Shown here one piece after another: positions 10,699 through 27,545 of a DNA stretch of 38,976 nt. The position numbers and the translations under genes were made by a program. The stretch comes from Aquabacterium sp. (GTDB lineage Bacteria > Pseudomonadota > Gammaproteobacteria > Burkholderiales > Burkholderiaceae_C): the NCBI GenBank assembly GCA_029865965.1, contig JARXAJ010000195.1:1-38976 (forward strand), written 5' to 3'. The stretch's first letter is position 1. Each line of letters opens with the position of its first letter. A model generated the notes under the pieces. That model saw nothing but the letters and a program-made list of their open reading frames with translations, did no database searches and was not told the origin of the DNA.

Positions 10699-11924
10699 AC
10701 CCGGGCCAGCCCCAGCAGGTGCGCCATGTCCTTGAAGAAGATGCGCACATGGGCCATGGGCTTCGTGCGCACCAGGCGCTTGTTCATGTAGGCGTCGAAG
10801 GTCAGCTGCTGCACGTCCTTGTCCTTGCAGATGCTGACGAAGCGCTCGCGCCGCTTGTCGCTGGAGTACCAGAAGCGCTGCATGATGCCCAGCACCCAGA
10901 ACACGCGGCCATGCTCGCGCATGAACAGCTTGCGCGCCAGGCCCAGGCAGCGGGGTGATGCGCCTGCGAGCAGGGCGCCCACGGCGGTGGCGGCATGCCG
11001 GCCGCTGGCCATGGCGTAGTAGATGCCTTCACCCGACGACGGGGCGATCACGCCGGCGGCATCGCCCACCACCACCACGTCGCGGCCGTTGTCCCAGCGC
11101 TTGAGCGGCTTCATCGGCAGTGGCGCACCCTCGCGGCGGATGGTGCGGGCGCCGGCCAGGCCGGCCTCGGCGCGCAATGTGGCCACCGCCCCGCGCAGGC
11201 TGAACCCCTTGTCGGCGCTGCCGGTGCCGATGGACAGGGTCTTGCCATGCGGGAACACCCAGCCGTAGAAGTCGGGCGAGATGCTGCCGCGGTAGACCAC
11301 ATCGCAGCGTGTGGGGTCGTAGCCGGCCGGCTGCTGATCGGGCAAGGCGATGATCTCGTGGTACGCAAACACGCAGGCCACCTTGCTGATGCCCGGGATG
11401 GCCTGCTGGGCCACCGCCGAACGGGCGCCGTCGGCACCGATCACCGCCTTGGCCCGCACCGACCACAGCGGGCCCACGGCGTCGGTGCCATCACCGCCAG
11501 AGGGGCGGTACAGGATCACGGCCGTGCCGTCGGCGTCACGCTCCAGCCGCTCGAAGCGGCCGCTGCGGCGCTGGGCGCCGTGGCTGGCTGCGCGCGTGCG
11601 CAAAAACTCGTCGAAGTGCTCGCGGTCGACCATGCCGACGAAGCCGCCCTCGATCGGGATGTCCACTTTCACATCGGCCGGCGACACCATGCGCGCCGAG
11701 TGGGCGCGCGCCGCCAATTGCGAATCGGGGATGGCGAAGTCCTTGATCAGGCGCGGCGGGATGGCGCCACCGCAGGGCTTGATGCGTCCGGCGCGGTCGA
11801 GCAGCAGGACTTTGCGGCCCTGGCGTGCCAGGTCGTCGGCGGCGGTGGCGCCGGCAGGCCCGCCACCGACCACCACCACGTCAAAGGTTTCGGCTTGTGC
11901 CGTCGGGCTGGGGATGAGGCTCAT
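10695..11924 (-). CDS. bchP: Geranylgeranyl bacteriochlorophyll / diphosphate reductase BchP
   Basis: A 409-residue FAD-dependent reductase that saturates three double bonds of the geranylgeranyl tail to give the phytyl tail of bacteriochlorophyll. The dinucleotide-binding motif V-V-G-G-G-P-A-G-A-T-A-A lies near residues 19-30 and is followed by L-L-D-R and the family-typical K-P-C-G-G-A-I-P-P. The second FAD motif, V-V-V-G-D-A-A-G-V-I-A-P-S-S-G-E-G-I-Y-Y, is also present. The start overlaps the preceding PucC-like gene by 4 bp, and the small membrane gene overlaps its stop. Membrane-associated, electrons from NADPH. Identification is secure from motifs and context. Confidence 0.95.
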   Translation of the reverse strand: MSLIPSPTAQAETFDVVVVGGGPAGATAADDLARQGRKVLLLDRAGRIKPCGGAIPPRLIKDFAIPDSQLAARAHSARMVSPADVKVDIPIEGGFVGMVDREHFDEFLRTRAASHGAQRRSGRFERLERDADGTAVILYRPSGGDGTDAVGPLWSVRAKAVIGADGARSAVAQQAIPGISKVACVFAYHEIIALPDQQPAGYDPTRCDVVYRGSISPDFYGWVFPHGKTLSIGTGSADKGFSLRGAVATLRAEAGLAGARTIRREGAPLPMKPLKRWDNGRDVVVVGDAAGVIAPSSGEGIYYAMASGRHAATAVGALLAGASPRCLGLARKLFMREHGRVFWVLGIMQRFWYSSDKRRERFVSICKDKDVQQLTFDAYMNKRLVRTKPMAHVRIFFKDMAHLLGLARV

Positions 11925-13492
11925 GTCGCTGCTCCGAATTCATTGGCAGGGGTGAGGGTGCCCGGCCGCCTGTTGGCGGTGTTGGGCTGGGAGATGGTTG
12001 CAGTTGCGGTTGCAGTTGCGGTTGCGGCTGAAGTTGCTGGTGCTGGTGCCGGCACGGCCACACGCCAGGCCAGGCCGGCGGCCACCACGAACAGTAGGCC
12101 TTCGAGCGCAAACACCAGGGCATAGGCTTGGCCAGGGGTGCCGATCAGCTGGCGCGACAGATCGCTGGCAGCCGCGCCCAGCAGCCCGCCGAGGCCGAAG
12201 GCCACCGCCTGCGCCGCGCCCCACAGGCCCATGCGCACGCCTTCGCGGCCGGGTGCGCCCTGGGTGGCCAGCGCCATCATGGCGCCGATGGCGGCGATGG
12301 AGAACGCGCCGTTGGACACGCCCAGCAAGAACACCGTGGTGCGCAGCGGCCAGGCCGTGCCCAGCAGCCCGGCGGCGACCAGGCCGGCCATGGCGATGGC
12401 CGAGGCGATGCAACCGCCCACCACCCAGCCGCGCAGTGAGCCCAGGGCCCGACCAGCCAGGCGCCGGCCGGCAAATGCCGCCATCAGCATGCCCAGCAGC
12501 ACACCGCCGTGCTGCACGCCCGACAACTGCGTGCTCTCACCCGGGGTGTAGCCATGCACGATGCCGGCGAAGGGCTCCAGGATCAGGTCTTGCGCGCTGT
12601 AGGCCAGCATCGACACGAACACGAAGATGGTGAAGCGGCGGGCATCGCTGTCAGCCCACACCTGGGCCAGCGCGGCGCGGAAGTCGGGCTTGGCGGCAGC
12701 GGCGTCGGGCGTGTCTGGCGGTGCCTGGGCGGTTTCGACACCCCACACCGCCAGCAGTGACAGCACCAGGGCCAGCGCGCACACCCCGCCGCTGACCTGC
12801 AGCAGCCGGGCTGGCGAGTATGGGTCGAGCAGCTTGCCGCTGACACCGGCGGTGACGGCGAAGCCGACGATCATCATCAGCCACACCGTGGTGGCGGCGG
12901 CGGCGCGGCGGTCGGCCGCCACCCGTTTGGCCAGCAGCACCAGCAGCGACGTGCCGGCCGCGCCCACGCCCAGGCCGATCAGCACGAAGGCCGCCACCGC
13001 CAGGGTGATGCCGGCTGCCGGGCTGCTGCCCATCCACACCGTGGCCAGCGCGGCCAGGAAGCCGCCACTGGCCAGGACCGCCATGCCGCCGGCGATCCAC
13101 GGCGTGCGGCGGGCTGTCACGTCGCTGCCATGGCCCAGCCGCGGCCGCAACATCTGCACCAGGTAGTGCAGGGCCACCAGCGCACCCGGCAACAGCGCCG
13201 GCAGCGCCAGCTCGACCACCATCACCCGGTTCAATGTGGATGTGGTGGTGACCACCACCGCACCCAGGCAGGCCTGCACCAGGCCCAGCCGGAAGATCTG
13301 CCACCAGCTGAAATGGGTATCCCCGCTGCGGCCTTCGGCCGCCCCCCCAGGAGGTGCAGGCCAGCGCCCCGGCGAAGCCGGTTCCGCGAAGTGGGTACCC
13401 CCCCTACGGCCTTCGGCCGCCCCCCCAGGGGGGCCACGCCAGCGGCCCGGCGAAGCCGGTTCCGCGGCGTGCGCTTGCTGGGGAGTGCTCAT
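11921..13492 (-). CDS. PucC/LhaA-family MFS protein between bchG and bchP, with repeat insertion
   Basis: A 523-residue membrane protein of the BCD (bacteriochlorophyll delivery) family of major facilitator proteins, like LhaA and PucC and the orf428-type gene found between bchG and bchP in other purple bacteria. Family blocks include F-R-L-G-L-V-Q, T-S-T-L-N-R-V-M-V-V-E-L and F-A-G-I-V-H-G-Y-T-P-G-E-S-T-Q-L-S-G. The ATG at 13492 overlaps the bchG stop (ATGA), so the start is firm. Between residue 9 and the native-looking S-W-W-Q-I-F (residue 62) lie two 26-residue Pro/Gly-rich repeats encoded by tandem 78-bp DNA repeats, absent from the family as I know it. The C-terminus ends in an Ala/Thr/Pro-rich tail. 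It likely helps pigment insertion or transport. The insertion keeps the frame, so the protein is probably still made. Confidence 0.88.
   Translation of the reverse strand: MSTPQQAHAAEPASPGRWRGPPGGAAEGRRGGTHFAEPASPGRWPAPPGGAAEGRSGDTHFSWWQIFRLGLVQACLGAVVVTTTSTLNRVMVVELALPALLPGALVALHYLVQMLRPRLGHGSDVTARRTPWIAGGMAVLASGGFLAALATVWMGSSPAAGITLAVAAFVLIGLGVGAAGTSLLVLLAKRVAADRRAAAATTVWLMMIVGFAVTAGVSGKLLDPYSPARLLQVSGGVCALALVLSLLAVWGVETAQAPPDTPDAAAAKPDFRAALAQVWADSDARRFTIFVFVSMLAYSAQDLILEPFAGIVHGYTPGESTQLSGVQHGGVLLGMLMAAFAGRRLAGRALGSLRGWVVGGCIASAIAMAGLVAAGLLGTAWPLRTTVFLLGVSNGAFSIAAIGAMMALATQGAPGREGVRMGLWGAAQAVAFGLGGLLGAAASDLSRQLIGTPGQAYALVFALEGLLFVVAAGLAWRVAVPAPAPATSAATATATATATISQPNTANRRPGTLTPANEFGAAT
13310..13465 (-). 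repeat. Two tandem 78-bp palindromic repeats inside the PucC-like gene
   Basis: Copy one spans 13310-13387 and copy two 13388-13465; aligned by eye they differ at about nine positions. Each carries the palindrome GCGGCC-TTC-GGCCGC (or the near-identical ACGGCC version) and a C-run facing a G-run. 78 bp is 26 codons, so both copies stay in frame and code for A-E-P-A-S-P-G-R-W...T-H-F twice. They look like a dispersed intergenic palindromic element that landed in a coding sequence and duplicated. Confidence 0.9.
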
Positions 13493-14376
13493 CCGGGCTG
13501 TCCGGTTGTCGCGCGCAGCGCGAAGGCGCTGACCAGCATGCCGCTGACAAAGAAGTTGATGCCCAGCGCGCTGTACCAGATGGCGCGCTCACGCGGGCTG
13601 GCCAGGAAGCGCAGCATCAGCAGAAGTTGCACCGCCAGCAGGCCAGCCACGCCCAGCGCATGGCTGCTGGCGCCCCATTGGGCCAGCATCACCACCACCA
13701 CCACCTGCGGCGCCGCCATCATCAGGCAGGCGGTGCGGGCTGCCCCGTCCACCCCCAGGCGCACGGGCAGCGAGCCGATGCCCATCTGCCTGTCGCCTTC
13801 GATCGACTTGAAGTCGTTGAGCGTCATGATGCCGTGTGCCCCCACGCTGTAGAGCAGGGCCAGCAGCATCGACCGTTCACTGGGCCAGCCACCGGCGGCC
13901 ATCACCGCGGCGCCGGTCATCCAGGCCAGGCCTTCATACGACAAGCCGCAGGCTGCATTGCCCCACCAGCCGTTGCGCTTCAGGCGCAGCGGCGGCGCGC
14001 TGTACGCCCAGGCCAGCAATAGCCCGGCGGCGGCGGCAGCAAACCCCACCGGCCCCAGCACCATGCCCACGGCCAACGACAACACGGTCCACAGCACGGC
14101 GATGTACAGGCCCCAGCGGCCTGGCATGCGGCCCGACGGAATCGGCCGGTTGGGTTCATTGATGGCGTCGACATGGCGGTCGAACCAGTCGTTGACCGCC
14201 TGGCTGGTGGCACACACCAGCGGGCCGGCCAGCAAGATGCCCACCAGCACCAGACCCCAGCGGTCTGCAATCGGTGCGCCCGAGGCCACCACGCCGCACC
14301 CAAAGGCCCACATCGGAGGGAACCAGGTGATGGGCTTGAACAGTTCGGCGACGGTGGACAGCGCGGGTCTGGGCAT
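13489..14376 (-). CDS. bchG: Bacteriochlorophyll synthase BchG
   Basis: A 295-residue UbiA-family prenyltransferase that esterifies bacteriochlorophyllide a with geranylgeranyl (or phytyl) diphosphate at the inner membrane. The first Asp-rich motif reads N-D-W-F-D-R-H-V-D-A-I-N-E-P-N-R-P-I-P-S-G and the second T-L-N-D-F-K-S-I-E-G-D-R, both diagnostic of chlorophyll synthases; about eight membrane helices are predicted. The ATG at 14376 (M-P-R-P-A-L-S) is preferred to a TTG at 14412 that lies within the promoter. No good Shine-Dalgarno sequence is seen, and the predicted transcript start is next to the ATG. It leads the operon bchG / PucC-like / bchP / small membrane gene, with a PpsR box at the promoter. 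Confidence 0.95.
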   Translation of the reverse strand: MPRPALSTVAELFKPITWFPPMWAFGCGVVASGAPIADRWGLVLVGILLAGPLVCATSQAVNDWFDRHVDAINEPNRPIPSGRMPGRWGLYIAVLWTVLSLAVGMVLGPVGFAAAAAGLLLAWAYSAPPLRLKRNGWWGNAACGLSYEGLAWMTGAAVMAAGGWPSERSMLLALLYSVGAHGIMTLNDFKSIEGDRQMGIGSLPVRLGVDGAARTACLMMAAPQVVVVVMLAQWGASSHALGVAGLLAVQLLLMLRFLASPRERAIWYSALGINFFVSGMLVSAFALRATTGQPG

Positions 14377-14380
14377 GCGC

Positions 14381-14398
14381 TGATTCTTCTGCCTGACA
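14381..14398 (-). promoter_or_regulatory. Second, imperfect PpsR-like site at bchG
   Basis: On the minus strand the sequence reads TGT-N12-TCA, one mismatch from TGT-N12-ACA. It lies 8 bp from the perfect box at 14407-14424, a spacing that suits cooperative PpsR/CrtJ binding. Its first 12 bases, TGTCAGGCAGAA, recur exactly at 17051-17062 upstream of bchF. Confidence 0.45.
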
Positions 14399-14412
14399 CT
14401 CCAGAGTGTCAA
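14384..14412 (-). promoter_or_regulatory. bchG promoter (sigma-70 type) overlapping a PpsR box
   Basis: On the minus strand TTGACA (14412-14407) is followed after 17 bases by GAAGAA (14389-14384), a consensus -35 with a weak -10. The first T of the -35 lies exactly 36 bases before the A of the bchG ATG, so the transcript would start about at the start codon. The -35 lies inside a PpsR box, which fits repression by blocking RNA polymerase. Confidence 0.5.
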
Positions 14413-14424
14413 CCGGGATTTACA
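14407..14424 (+). promoter_or_regulatory. PpsR/CrtJ binding site upstream of bchG
   Basis: TGTCAACCGGGATTTACA is an exact TGT-N12-ACA match to the PpsR/CrtJ recognition sequence. It sits between the ppsR stop and the bchG start and overlaps the bchG -35 hexamer. It also shares its left half with the 18-bp palindrome TGACACTC-CA-GAGTGTCA (14394-14411). Confidence 0.7.
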
Positions 14425-14456
14425 TAGCCCCCGAGGATCGGCGGGCGGCGGGGCGG

Positions 14457-15914
14457 CTACTTTTCGACGCCGGGCCCCAGGTCGCCGAGGCCGTAGCGCC
14501 GCAGCTTCACGTACAGGCTCTGACGCGACAGCCCCAGGATCTCGGCGGCCGAGGCGCGGTTGTCGCGGGTGAGCTCCAGCGCGGCCTCGATGCAGCGCTT
14601 CTCGATCAGGTCGGTCGTCTCGCCGACGATGTCTTTCATCGGCACCCGCCCCACCAGCTCTGTCAGCTGGTTGACCGAGCGCGGCAGGGTCTGCGCGGCG
14701 GTGGTGTCGGGCTGCAAGCGGCGGCCGACGTCGCGCACGGTGAAGCCCAGCAGCATCGGGTCAGACCGGGTGACGGTGACCGCCGAGATCTCGACCTCGG
14801 TGTTGGCACCGAACTCACCACGCAGCGTGGTGGCAAAAAGCTTGACCGCCCCGCGCTGGCGCAGGTTGGACACCAGCACGCCCAGGTCCACGTCGGTGCG
14901 CCCCAGCCAGCGCTCCAGTGACTGGCCGCGCATCTGCTCCTCGCCGGCCATCTGGCAGAGGTTGATGAACTCGGTGTTGGCGGCCTGCACCAGGCCGTCC
15001 AAGTCGGTGACCACCAGCCCGTCTGGCGCGCCCTGGGCCAGTTGCAGCAGCATGGCCGATTCAGCCCCGTGGCTTTGGGCATGCTGGTTGTCAATGCGTG
15101 ACAGCCGCACCAGCAGCAGGTGGCTCTGGTCCTGGTGCAGCAGCGTGGCCGACACCTGCACCGCGCTGCGGCTCTCGGCAAGTTCGGCGCTGACCGGATC
15201 GGCGCGGCCGGTGCGCCGTGCCGCCGCCAGCAGCACGGTCACCAGCTTGGTGCTGCGCGGTGTCTGGCCCAGCGGAAACACCTGGCCCACCAGCCGCTCG
15301 ACCGGTGTGCCCATCATGGTGACGGCGGCAGGGTTGGCTTCCAGCACACGGCTGGTTTCGGCGTCGACCACCAGCACGGCCTCGCCGGCCATCTGGAACA
15401 GCTGGCGGTAGCGCAGTTCGGCCTGGCGGAACCGGGCGTAGTCGCGCTCGACCGACAGCTGGGCTTCGACCAGGCGTTGCTGCAGCGCCATGGTCACGCG
15501 CTGGTCGCGGCCGAAGGCAAACCAGCGTGCCGGCTTGCTGCCCTGTGCGGGCACGGCATGGCTGGCAAAGCTCAACGGCAAGGTGCCGCCTTCAGGGATG
15601 GTCTGGTTGATCTGCCGCCAGCGCATGGCGCCCGGTGCTGGCGGCGCCAGCAGTGCACGCACTTTGGCATGGCTGTCATCGCTGACGGTGTCGATCCAGC
15701 GCAGGCCGATCCACGCGTCGCCCAGTTCATTGGCCAGTGCCTCGTCACCGAAGGCCATGTCCAGGATGGTGCCGGTGTCGTCGATCACCATGGTCACGTC
15801 GGTGGCCGTGCACAGCAGGGCGGCGATGGCCTCGGGGCCGATGTCAGCCAGGGTCTGGCGCGCCTGCTTGAACTCCCCGGTGGCCCGGGTGGCAGCCGGC
15901 TTGGTCTTTTTCAT
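14457..15914 (-). CDS. ppsR: Photosynthesis-gene transcriptional regulator PpsR/CrtJ
   Basis: A 485-residue redox-responsive DNA-binding protein that controls bch, crt and light-harvesting genes by binding TGT-N12-ACA. PAS-like regions are seen at about residues 28-140, 165-275 and 285-400. The C-terminus carries a Fis-type helix-turn-helix (R-A-S-A-A-E-I-L-G-L-S-R-Q-S-L-Y-V-K-L, about 453-471). Only three cysteines occur: 35, 320 and 441; Cys441 lies just before the recognition helices, where CrtJ has its reactive cysteine, but I find none near residue 249. The ATG at 15914 (M-K-K-T-K) is chosen because the upstream extension reads as the shadow of ppaA. It follows ppaA by 34 bp and precedes bchG. 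Confidence 0.93.
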   Translation of the reverse strand: MKKTKPAATRATGEFKQARQTLADIGPEAIAALLCTATDVTMVIDDTGTILDMAFGDEALANELGDAWIGLRWIDTVSDDSHAKVRALLAPPAPGAMRWRQINQTIPEGGTLPLSFASHAVPAQGSKPARWFAFGRDQRVTMALQQRLVEAQLSVERDYARFRQAELRYRQLFQMAGEAVLVVDAETSRVLEANPAAVTMMGTPVERLVGQVFPLGQTPRSTKLVTVLLAAARRTGRADPVSAELAESRSAVQVSATLLHQDQSHLLLVRLSRIDNQHAQSHGAESAMLLQLAQGAPDGLVVTDLDGLVQAANTEFINLCQMAGEEQMRGQSLERWLGRTDVDLGVLVSNLRQRGAVKLFATTLRGEFGANTEVEISAVTVTRSDPMLLGFTVRDVGRRLQPDTTAAQTLPRSVNQLTELVGRVPMKDIVGETTDLIEKRCIEAALELTRDNRASAAEILGLSRQSLYVKLRRYGLGDLGPGVEK

Positions 15915-26088: not shown

Positions 26089-27545
26089 AGCCCGCCAACC
26101 GCAAGCCGATGGCGCAGCGCGTTATCCGTGCCTGGTCCACGCTGGGGCCGGAGTACCTGCCCTTTGCCGACGCCGCCAGCGCCGATCTGCCGCTGCCCCG
26201 CCTGTTGCGGCTGTCGCTGTTCAAGTTCACCATGGGTGTGACCCTGGCCCTGATGCTGGGCACGCTGAACCGCGTGATGATCTTCGAACTGCAGGTCTCG
26301 GCCTGGTTGGTGGCGCTGATGCTGTCGCTGCCCTTGCTGGTCGCGCCGTTCCGCGCCATCACCGGCTTCCAGTCCGACACCCTGCGCTCGGCATTCGGCT
26401 GGAAGCGTGTGCCGTTCATGTGGGGCGGCACCCTGGTGCAGTTCTTCGGCCTGGGCATCATGCCCTTCGCCCTGCTGGTGCTGTCGGGCGGTGGTGCGGT
26501 GCCCACACCTGACTGGGTGGGCCAGGGCGCGGCCGCGTTGTCCTTTCTGATGGTGGGCGCCGGGCTGCAAACCTCGCAGACCGCTGGGCTGGCGCTGGCC
26601 ACCGATCAAGCCAGCGATGCCACCCGTCCACGCGTGGTGGCGCTGATGTATGTGATGCTGCTGCTGGGCACGGTGCTGGGCAGCCTGGCGTTCAGCGTGC
26701 TGCTGGCCGACTTCAGCCCGCAGCGCCTGGTGCAAGTGGTGCAGGGCACGGCGATGTTTGTTCTGGTGTTCAACGCCTATGCCTTGTGGAAGCAGGAGCC
26801 GCGCAACCCGGCGCGTGCGGCCGCGATGAAGACCGAACCCGCGATGCCCTTCCGCCAGGCCTGGGGCCGCTTCATCGAGAACCCTCGCTCGCGCCGGTTC
26901 CTGTGGGCCACCGGCCTGGGCACCATGGCCTTCAACATGCAGGATGTGGTGCTCGAGCCCTACGGCGGCGAGATCCTGCACCTGAGCGTCAGCGCCACCA
27001 GCGGCCTGACCGCGCTGCTGGCAGGCGGTGCCCTGATCGGCTACATCCTGTCGGCCCGCAGTCTGGCGCGCGGCATCGATCCCTTGCGCCTGGCAGGTTA
27101 TGGCACGGTGCTGGGTCTGCCGGCCTTCGCGGCCGTCATCCTTGCCGCACCCATGGACGCCAGCTGGCTGTTCCGGCTGGGCGCCTTCGGCATCGGCTTC
27201 AGCGGCGGCCTGTTCGCCGTGGGCACGCTGCTGGCTGCCATGCACCTCGAGCAGGGCCGCTTCGTCGGCATGGCCCTGGGCGCCTGGGGTGCGGTGCAAG
27301 CCCTGGCCGCCGGGCTGTCGATGTTCATCGGCGGCGCACTGCGTGACTCTGTCTCGACCCTGGCAACGCAGGGCGCCTTGGGCAATGCGCTGGCCCAGCC
27401 GGCCACCGGGTACAGCGCTGTCTACCACCTTGAAATGTTGTTGTTGTTCATCACCCTCATCGCCATTGGCCCACTGGTGGGCCGCCGTGCGACATCCCCC
27501 AACCCCGAAACCACCCGCCTCGGTCTGGCCGACCTGCCGGGCTGA
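26085..27545 (+). CDS. lhaA: Light-harvesting complex 1 assembly protein LhaA (PucC family)
   Basis: A 486-residue inner-membrane protein of the BCD/PucC family of major facilitators with about twelve predicted helices, required in Rhodobacter for LH1 assembly and thought to deliver bacteriochlorophyll. Conserved blocks: F-K-F-T-M-G-V-T-L-A-L-M-L-G-T-L-N-R-V-M-I-F-E-L, G-W-K-R-V-P-F-M-W-G-G, and G-T-M-A-F-N-M-Q-D-V-V-L-E-P-Y-G-G. It is translationally coupled to bchM and is followed 25 bp later by puhA. It is a paralogue of the PucC-like gene in the bchG operon. Confidence 0.95.
   Translation: MKPANRKPMAQRVIRAWSTLGPEYLPFADAASADLPLPRLLRLSLFKFTMGVTLALMLGTLNRVMIFELQVSAWLVALMLSLPLLVAPFRAITGFQSDTLRSAFGWKRVPFMWGGTLVQFFGLGIMPFALLVLSGGGAVPTPDWVGQGAAALSFLMVGAGLQTSQTAGLALATDQASDATRPRVVALMYVMLLLGTVLGSLAFSVLLADFSPQRLVQVVQGTAMFVLVFNAYALWKQEPRNPARAAAMKTEPAMPFRQAWGRFIENPRSRRFLWATGLGTMAFNMQDVVLEPYGGEILHLSVSATSGLTALLAGGALIGYILSARSLARGIDPLRLAGYGTVLGLPAFAAVILAAPMDASWLFRLGAFGIGFSGGLFAVGTLLAAMHLEQGRFVGMALGAWGAVQALAAGLSMFIGGALRDSVSTLATQGALGNALAQPATGYSAVYHLEMLLLFITLIAIGPLVGRRATSPNPETTRLGLADLPG

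Follow-up and report, generated by a model that had tools for sequence, protein, structure and literature searches.

An in-frame, tandemly duplicated REP-like element probably encodes an N-terminal extension of a pucC-like protein in Aquabacterium

How does a membrane protein of a photosynthesis gene cluster come to carry two palindromic repeats just after its start codon, and do these repeats become part of the protein? The pucC-like gene that raises this question lies in a 38,976-nt stretch of Aquabacterium sp. DNA, hereafter the window, at 11921–13492 on the minus strand, where it encodes 523 amino acids of the MFS-type PUCC family from an ATG start; in a profile search, PF03209 (PUCC) matches residues 86–479 with 328 bits. 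On its 5′ side is a bchG-type ORF, named by synteny (13489–14412, minus strand), and the pucC-like ATG overlaps the bchG TGA as ATGA (offset −1), the commonest arrangement among the relatives measured. The initial annotation had described two tandem 78-bp copies without stop codons in the coding frame, and both points hold: the copies, at 13310–13387 and 13388–13465, form a direct repeat with a period of 78 and a TRF score of 251, are 88% identical without gaps, and leave the pucC-like ORF open across both units. A 19-nt core pattern, allowing up to 3 mismatches, occurs 3 times in the window, compared with 0.11 expected from shuffles; it is exact in both copies and has 3 mismatches in the third occurrence. 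Fold stability of the insert beyond its composition is weak (z of −1.87 and −1.23).

Two identities for the insert were considered and set aside. For a known RNA family, Rfam at its gathering scores matches nothing in the window; for an intrinsic terminator, no hairpin followed by a T run is found at 12900–14500. Elsewhere in the window, the pucC-like gene has a short tandem repeat near its C-terminus (11996–12037, periods 6, 12 and 18) that encodes an Ala-Thr run, and a second relative of the gene, with 31% identity, is found at 26202–27485 on the plus strand, where the model of the element described below has no significant match.

The relatives show what the site looks like when empty. From the bchG stop codon to a conserved tryptophan, the distance is 26 bp in the two nearest relatives, genome G010 and R. 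pictus, compared with 182 bp here, exactly 156 bp longer; the corresponding empty sites read MMALPGSHFSWWQIF in G010 and VSTAAGQHFGWVQI in R. pictus. The protein is accordingly 52 residues longer than those of its nearest relatives, the length that the initial annotation had proposed for an N-terminal extension. Over 80 homologous named loci, the gap is 13–68 bp in all 70 in which it is measurable; the ten left out are two without the N-terminal part (L133, L139), seven with no bchG found upstream (L083, L087, L088, L109, L121, L122 and L131) and one that was mis-parsed (L072). The element model matches none of the 80 loci (546 kb) at E ≤ 0.01. Six of the 21 genomes of the genus have the gene (E ≤ 1e-40); the five besides the own genome are matched only from query residue 46–59 onward rather than from residue 1, and have N-termini of 7–10 residues ahead of the Trp position. 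Third-position divergence in bchG (0.25 from G010 and 0.24 from R. pictus) exceeds that between the two repeat copies (0.115), which fits insertion and duplication after these lineages split, as far as such a rough clock can tell.

An assembly or binning artefact, which we regard as extremely improbable, would draw on the state of the genome, a fragmented bin of 4.46 Mb in 317 contigs and 88% complete, in which about 70 other copies of the same family are present. The bchG–pucC arrangement is the same as in relatives, however, and the copies differ at nine positions in an array of only about 160 bp, so that a collapsed or chimeric join is unlikely.

Aligned with family members from elsewhere in the genome, the insert resolves into one complete element and one truncated copy. 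Starting from the gene start, the native codons ATG AGC ACT CCC CAG (MSTPQ) occupy 13478–13492 on the minus strand. They are followed by copy A, a full element of 84 nt or 28 codons (13394–13477, minus), running from CAAGCGCACGCC to GGGGGGGTACC, whose CAAG end lies 11 nt past the bchG stop codon; the covariance model matches it at 13395–13474 with 77.5 bits. Its main bulged hairpin, at 13435–13471 on the minus strand, is the covarying helix of the family and reads CACGCC-GCGG-AA-CCGGC, a loop of TTC, and GCCGG-G-CCGC-T-GGCGTG. Next comes CACTTC (13388–13393, minus), native His-Phe codons carried within the 78-nt duplication; HF stands before the conserved G/S-W in both G010 and R. pictus. Copy B, the second 78-nt unit (13310–13387, minus), is a weaker match of 41 bits, lacks the first 12 nt of the element and ends in CATTTC, read as the native His-Phe.

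This assignment moves one boundary. Nine native codons had been proposed ahead of the insert, and four of them, Q-A-H-A, are in fact the element's own end: CAAGCGCACGCC (13466–13477) is identical to the matching end of genomic copy L022, supplies one arm of the main hairpin, in which CACGCC is paired with GGCGTG, and, apart from its first 3 nt, lies inside the covariance-model match to copy A. About five native codons, MSTPQ, thus precede the insert, which we place at 13316–13477, 162 nt or 54 codons read as 84 + 78 nt, starting 12 nt earlier than first annotated. The stop-to-Trp length taken alone, 156 bp longer, leaves the boundary uncertain by about two codons, and the insert boundaries are accordingly given to within a few nucleotides.

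The same details bear on how there came to be two copies. Side-by-side insertion of two different family members is rather unlikely in our assessment, yet it has points in its favour: the divergence of copy A from copy B (9 of 78 sites) falls within what family members show among themselves, and adjacent copies do occur in R. pictus, at C19:54547–54626 and 54631–54711. In a further copy (L185) the third hairpin is partly repeated, so tandem copies of the element are also found elsewhere. Against two insertions, the shared ending TACCCA(C/T)TTC gives each unit the native His-Phe codons, and the element's 12-nt end is missing from copy B. Of the nine differing sites, six have the family letter in A and two have it in B, the remaining one falling in the native codons, as expected if B is a decayed duplicate of A. 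The third hairpin common to the pair (CGGCCTTCGGCCG) has no exact match among the 27 modelled copies of the genome, and the same variant is found in R. pictus, in a separate copy (L230), so that the shared hairpin supports a common origin weakly and does not prove duplication. Third hairpins vary in other ways too: in L183 (513–614), L192 and L208 a different palindrome, of the type GGCACAAACGGC...GCCGTTTGTG, takes the place of this hairpin. A single in-frame insertion of a REP-like element near the pucC-like start, followed by a 78-nt tandem duplication and translated as an extension of the protein, is very probably the correct reading of the locus.

The inserted element belongs to a large family. 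Copies aligned with their flanks define a unit of about 85 nt with C(C)AAGCGG at one end and a G run at the other. A covariance model built from 27 copies has 81 positions and 26 pairs arranged in three hairpins. Ten of the 26 pairs are changed on both sides, as many as in none of 500 shuffles, a comparison to be read with the caveat that related copies can exceed shuffles without structure; 95% of cells are paired, and pairing falls to 40–59% when the partners are slid by 1–3 columns, a shift that also destroys the covariation signal. A DNA search of the genome, with 40 of 194 candidates scored, gave at least 41 matches including the window. With the covariance model at E ≤ 0.01, and with 150 of 9889 candidates scored, there are at least 73 matches, two of which are the window copies, so that at least 71 copies lie elsewhere in the genome; a further 37 are found in R. 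pictus and 71 in G034, which belongs to another genus of the family, at E ≤ 0.001. Together with the homologous loci, short wherever measurable and free of the element, these other copies support the proposal that a palindromic element, located mostly between genes, came to lie within a coding region and was then duplicated.

The distribution of the element follows kinship. Under stricter filters it is found in 34 of 60 genomes searched, namely the own genome (1 of 1), all 20 others of the genus and 13 of 15 from the same family, and in none of the 24 genomes from other families of the order. Viral contigs contain no match to an exact 28-nt core pattern. Six plasmid records have similar DNA (three from Variovorax and one each from Methylibium, Comamonas and Diaphorobacter), and in one of the two inspected the match stands between arsC and an arsenic transporter gene, and a 30-residue consensus peptide has no match in plasmids. 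A RAYT transposase was considered as the mover of the element and set aside: no match to PF01797 (Y1_Tnp) was found in the own genome at E ≤ 0.001 by a search whose control was positive in 5 of 14 genomes, and as the own genome is 88% complete, a RAYT gene may have been missed.

A second candidate property, that the element is specially open in all six reading frames, was also rejected. Copies open in all frames number 32 of 71 in the own genome, 8 of 30 in R. pictus and 1 of 30 in G034, about equal to or fewer than dinucleotide shuffles of the same elements (fractions of 0.41, 0.39 and 0.31, respectively). Since shuffled elements are open about as often, the absence of stops follows from base composition.

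The most prominent feature of the family is its position relative to genes. Using a codon-based segmenter trained on the own genome to class the 71 other copies, a gene ends at the C-run side of 67, and the end of the stop codon lies between −9 and +4 nt from the element in 57 of the 66 that could be measured (71 minus four with a neighbour on the other strand and one without a measurable frame). A second count, independent of the segmenter, required an ORF of 100 codons or more whose stop ends −12 to +6 nt from the element start, and found one at 56 of 71 copies in the own genome, 28 of 30 in R. pictus (the best-scoring 30 of 37) and 22 of 30 in G034 (the best 30 of 71), compared with 134 of 3192, 52 of 1440 and 56 of 1440 shifted control positions, or about 4%. 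Across the loci tested in two genera (L141–L270), most copies begin a few nucleotides from a stop codon and mostly in one orientation. The other end of the element abuts a gene on the other strand in 12 of 71 own, 5 of 30 R. pictus and 0 of 30 G034 copies.

Within this pattern the window copy is unusual, in that the opposite end of the element faces the bchG stop, 11 nt away. Two exceptions elsewhere in the genome (L152, L164) have the window's orientation, with the G-run end just 5′ of a start codon. The abutment of stop codons may reflect targeting, or selection of the element as a 3′ RNA structure. A broader reading, in which the family is actively or selectively placed at stop codons and is a recurrent source of downstream N-termini where genes overlap, the pucC-like gene being a reversed and duplicated example, is offered tentatively and we consider it somewhat doubtful.

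Whether the insert is translated turns first on the start codon. The repeats could instead form a 5′ untranslated leader, with the start located 3′ of the insert and no extension made. Such a reading has been suggested for many REPs at the N-termini of ORFs, which may be extragenic owing to mis-called starts (PMC3733652), and a codon model finds 13338–13510 to be non-coding in composition. Between the insert and the invariant Arg68, however, there is no in-frame ATG, GTG or TTG, the first being a GTG at Val72, and in relatives the gene commonly starts with the same ATGA overlap. With no in-frame start before conserved residues, a leader of this kind is very unlikely and the insert is, judging from sequence, probably translated as part of the pucC-like protein. 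An AlphaFold2 prediction on 24 sequences gives 12 long helices from residue 63 onward and a pLDDT below 50 for residues 1–58, which is expected in part because no other alignment row covers that region. The predicted extension is thus probably a Pro/Gly/Arg-rich disordered tail, presumably on the cytoplasmic side, where we place it by PucC/LhaA topology.

The pucC-like gene seems not to be unique in having an element-encoded N-terminus. Where the next gene overlaps the stop codon that the element abuts, the element can become the N-terminus of that gene's product, and 12 of the 71 other own copies pass an automatic test for this arrangement, with a start codon at most 30 nt ahead of the element whose frame runs through it and on into coding-like sequence; in the antisense orientation, that of the window, none of the 71 do, and in other genomes 4 of 30 R. 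pictus copies and 1 of 30 G034 copies pass. Eight of the 12 were accepted as N-terminal candidates. In the other four (L146, L165, L182 and the L183 copy at 513), which are left out of the count, an ATG or GTG 13–51 nt past the element is a likely start. The accepted candidates encode a PRK04334-type protein with a GTG start (L153), UrtC (L158, 1501–1581), GluQRS (L166), TgpA (L183), XerC with a TTG start (L186), FlgI (L194), SpoVR (L204) and an FMN-dependent dehydrogenase (L207). For each of them the family model begins after the element-encoded peptide, and five lack any ATG, GTG or TTG in the 45 nt past the element; UrtC, FlgI and SpoVR have a TTG or GTG 14–29 nt past it, so that their start assignments are tentative.

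Orthologues, compared for two of these candidates, show empty sites. At GluQRS, the element is present in the own genome and missing from all 13 relatives read, with one partial locus of 14 left out. At UrtC, the own genome and 2 of 12 relatives (G005 and G020) carry it in frame and ten lack it, with one partial locus of 13 left out, a comparison that supports this candidate despite the TTG codons 3′ of the element. At the UrtB/UrtC-type junction, an in-frame element is seen in three species of the genus (L158, L288, L290), possibly by recurrent insertion at one site. The element is also read through at C-termini, where it adds about 30 residues to an enoyl-CoA hydratase (L149) and to an epimerase-family protein (L154).

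The family shares several properties with palindromic repeats described before. Similar to the GTAG/CGTC REPs described in PMC3733652, it consists of high-copy, dispersed palindromes (at least 71 other copies in the own genome, with a 26-pair, covarying stem-loop structure) that are mostly intergenic and near the 3′ ends of genes, with some in ORFs. It differs from them in size, at about 85 nt with its ends and three hairpins as opposed to 20–40 bp, in the tag, neither GTAG nor CGTC being conserved across the 27 aligned copies although each occurs in some, in the RAYT gene, none being detected in the own genome, and in abutting stop codons within a few nucleotides, mostly in one orientation. 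The same paper describes REPs inside ORFs of several species, a number of them at N-termini, REPs near gene 3′ ends, REP clusters that encode 43–82 residues in Thauera and R. conorii, and R. conorii proteins with an N-terminal RPE-1 that are expressed in vivo (PMC3733652).

Rickettsia RPE-1, RPE-4 and RPE-6 (as summarised in PMC3733652) are likewise palindromic repeats in many unrelated genes, and in-frame insertions into ORFs with empty orthologues, a feature of RPEs, are found here in the window gene, GluQRS and UrtC. The two are set apart, by description, by host and size and by the coding copies here being a minority, located at gene junctions. The palindromic amphipathic repeat coding elements known as PARCEL (PMC2996958) can be likened to the present element, again by description, as protein-coding repeats. 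In E. coli, according to PMC12306157, REPs also form hairpins within 15 nt of stop codons, with 446 of 4072 predicted REPs (about 11%) less than 16 nt away, whereas the present element lies within the narrower −12 to +6 nt at the large majority of copies counted above. Coding REP-like insertions are therefore already in print, and the present family adds a member to a known kind, distinguished by unusually tight placement at stop codons and, in the window, by a reversed orientation. Among titles and abstracts, a search in which subscription journals are mostly outside, we found no description of this element family and no named palindromic-element insertion in a photosynthesis gene.

Could the insertion have been kept for a function? 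Hairpins might tune bchG termination or translation of the pucC-like gene, or the extension might modify the assembly factor. In E. coli, a distance below 16 nt between REP and stop codon is reported to reduce translation (PMC12306157), and five of the nine differences between A and B are synonymous (P = 0.078 under random change). That P value is weak, and we do not claim selection on the extension from it; the insert is present in one genome only, the protein core is unchanged, and a change that broke the frame would inactivate the gene regardless of any value of the extension. We therefore consider retention for function unlikely, and infer that the extension is tolerated rather than selected.

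Under the preferred reading, a single insertion followed by duplication, a REP-like element of about 85 nt would have inserted 11 nt 3′ of the bchG stop, which is codon 5/6 of the pucC-like gene, in the orientation opposite to most copies and most likely by the stop-codon-proximal insertion typical of the family or through a copy spread by recombination. Its length of 84 nt and its lack of stops in frame would have kept the pucC-like gene open. A later in-frame tandem duplication of 78 nt, covering the element without its first 12 nt together with the native His-Phe codons, would have produced the present array; this order of events, like translation of the insert in the cell, is what we infer. 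With the old ATGA-coupled start retained, the insert would be translated in front of the intact core with its 12 long helices, and hairpins in the mRNA would have at most a modest effect on bchG-to-pucC coupled translation.

With this locus, a membrane protein of the photosynthesis cluster joins the genes that have palindromic-repeat-encoded parts, in a case where the empty site is visible in close relatives. Compared with what is reported for REPs of E. coli, the element abuts stop codons far more tightly, and where genes overlap in the ATGA manner it can become protein. Two questions thereby become testable: how such repeats reach stop codons, and whether cells translate and tolerate the N-termini that they encode.
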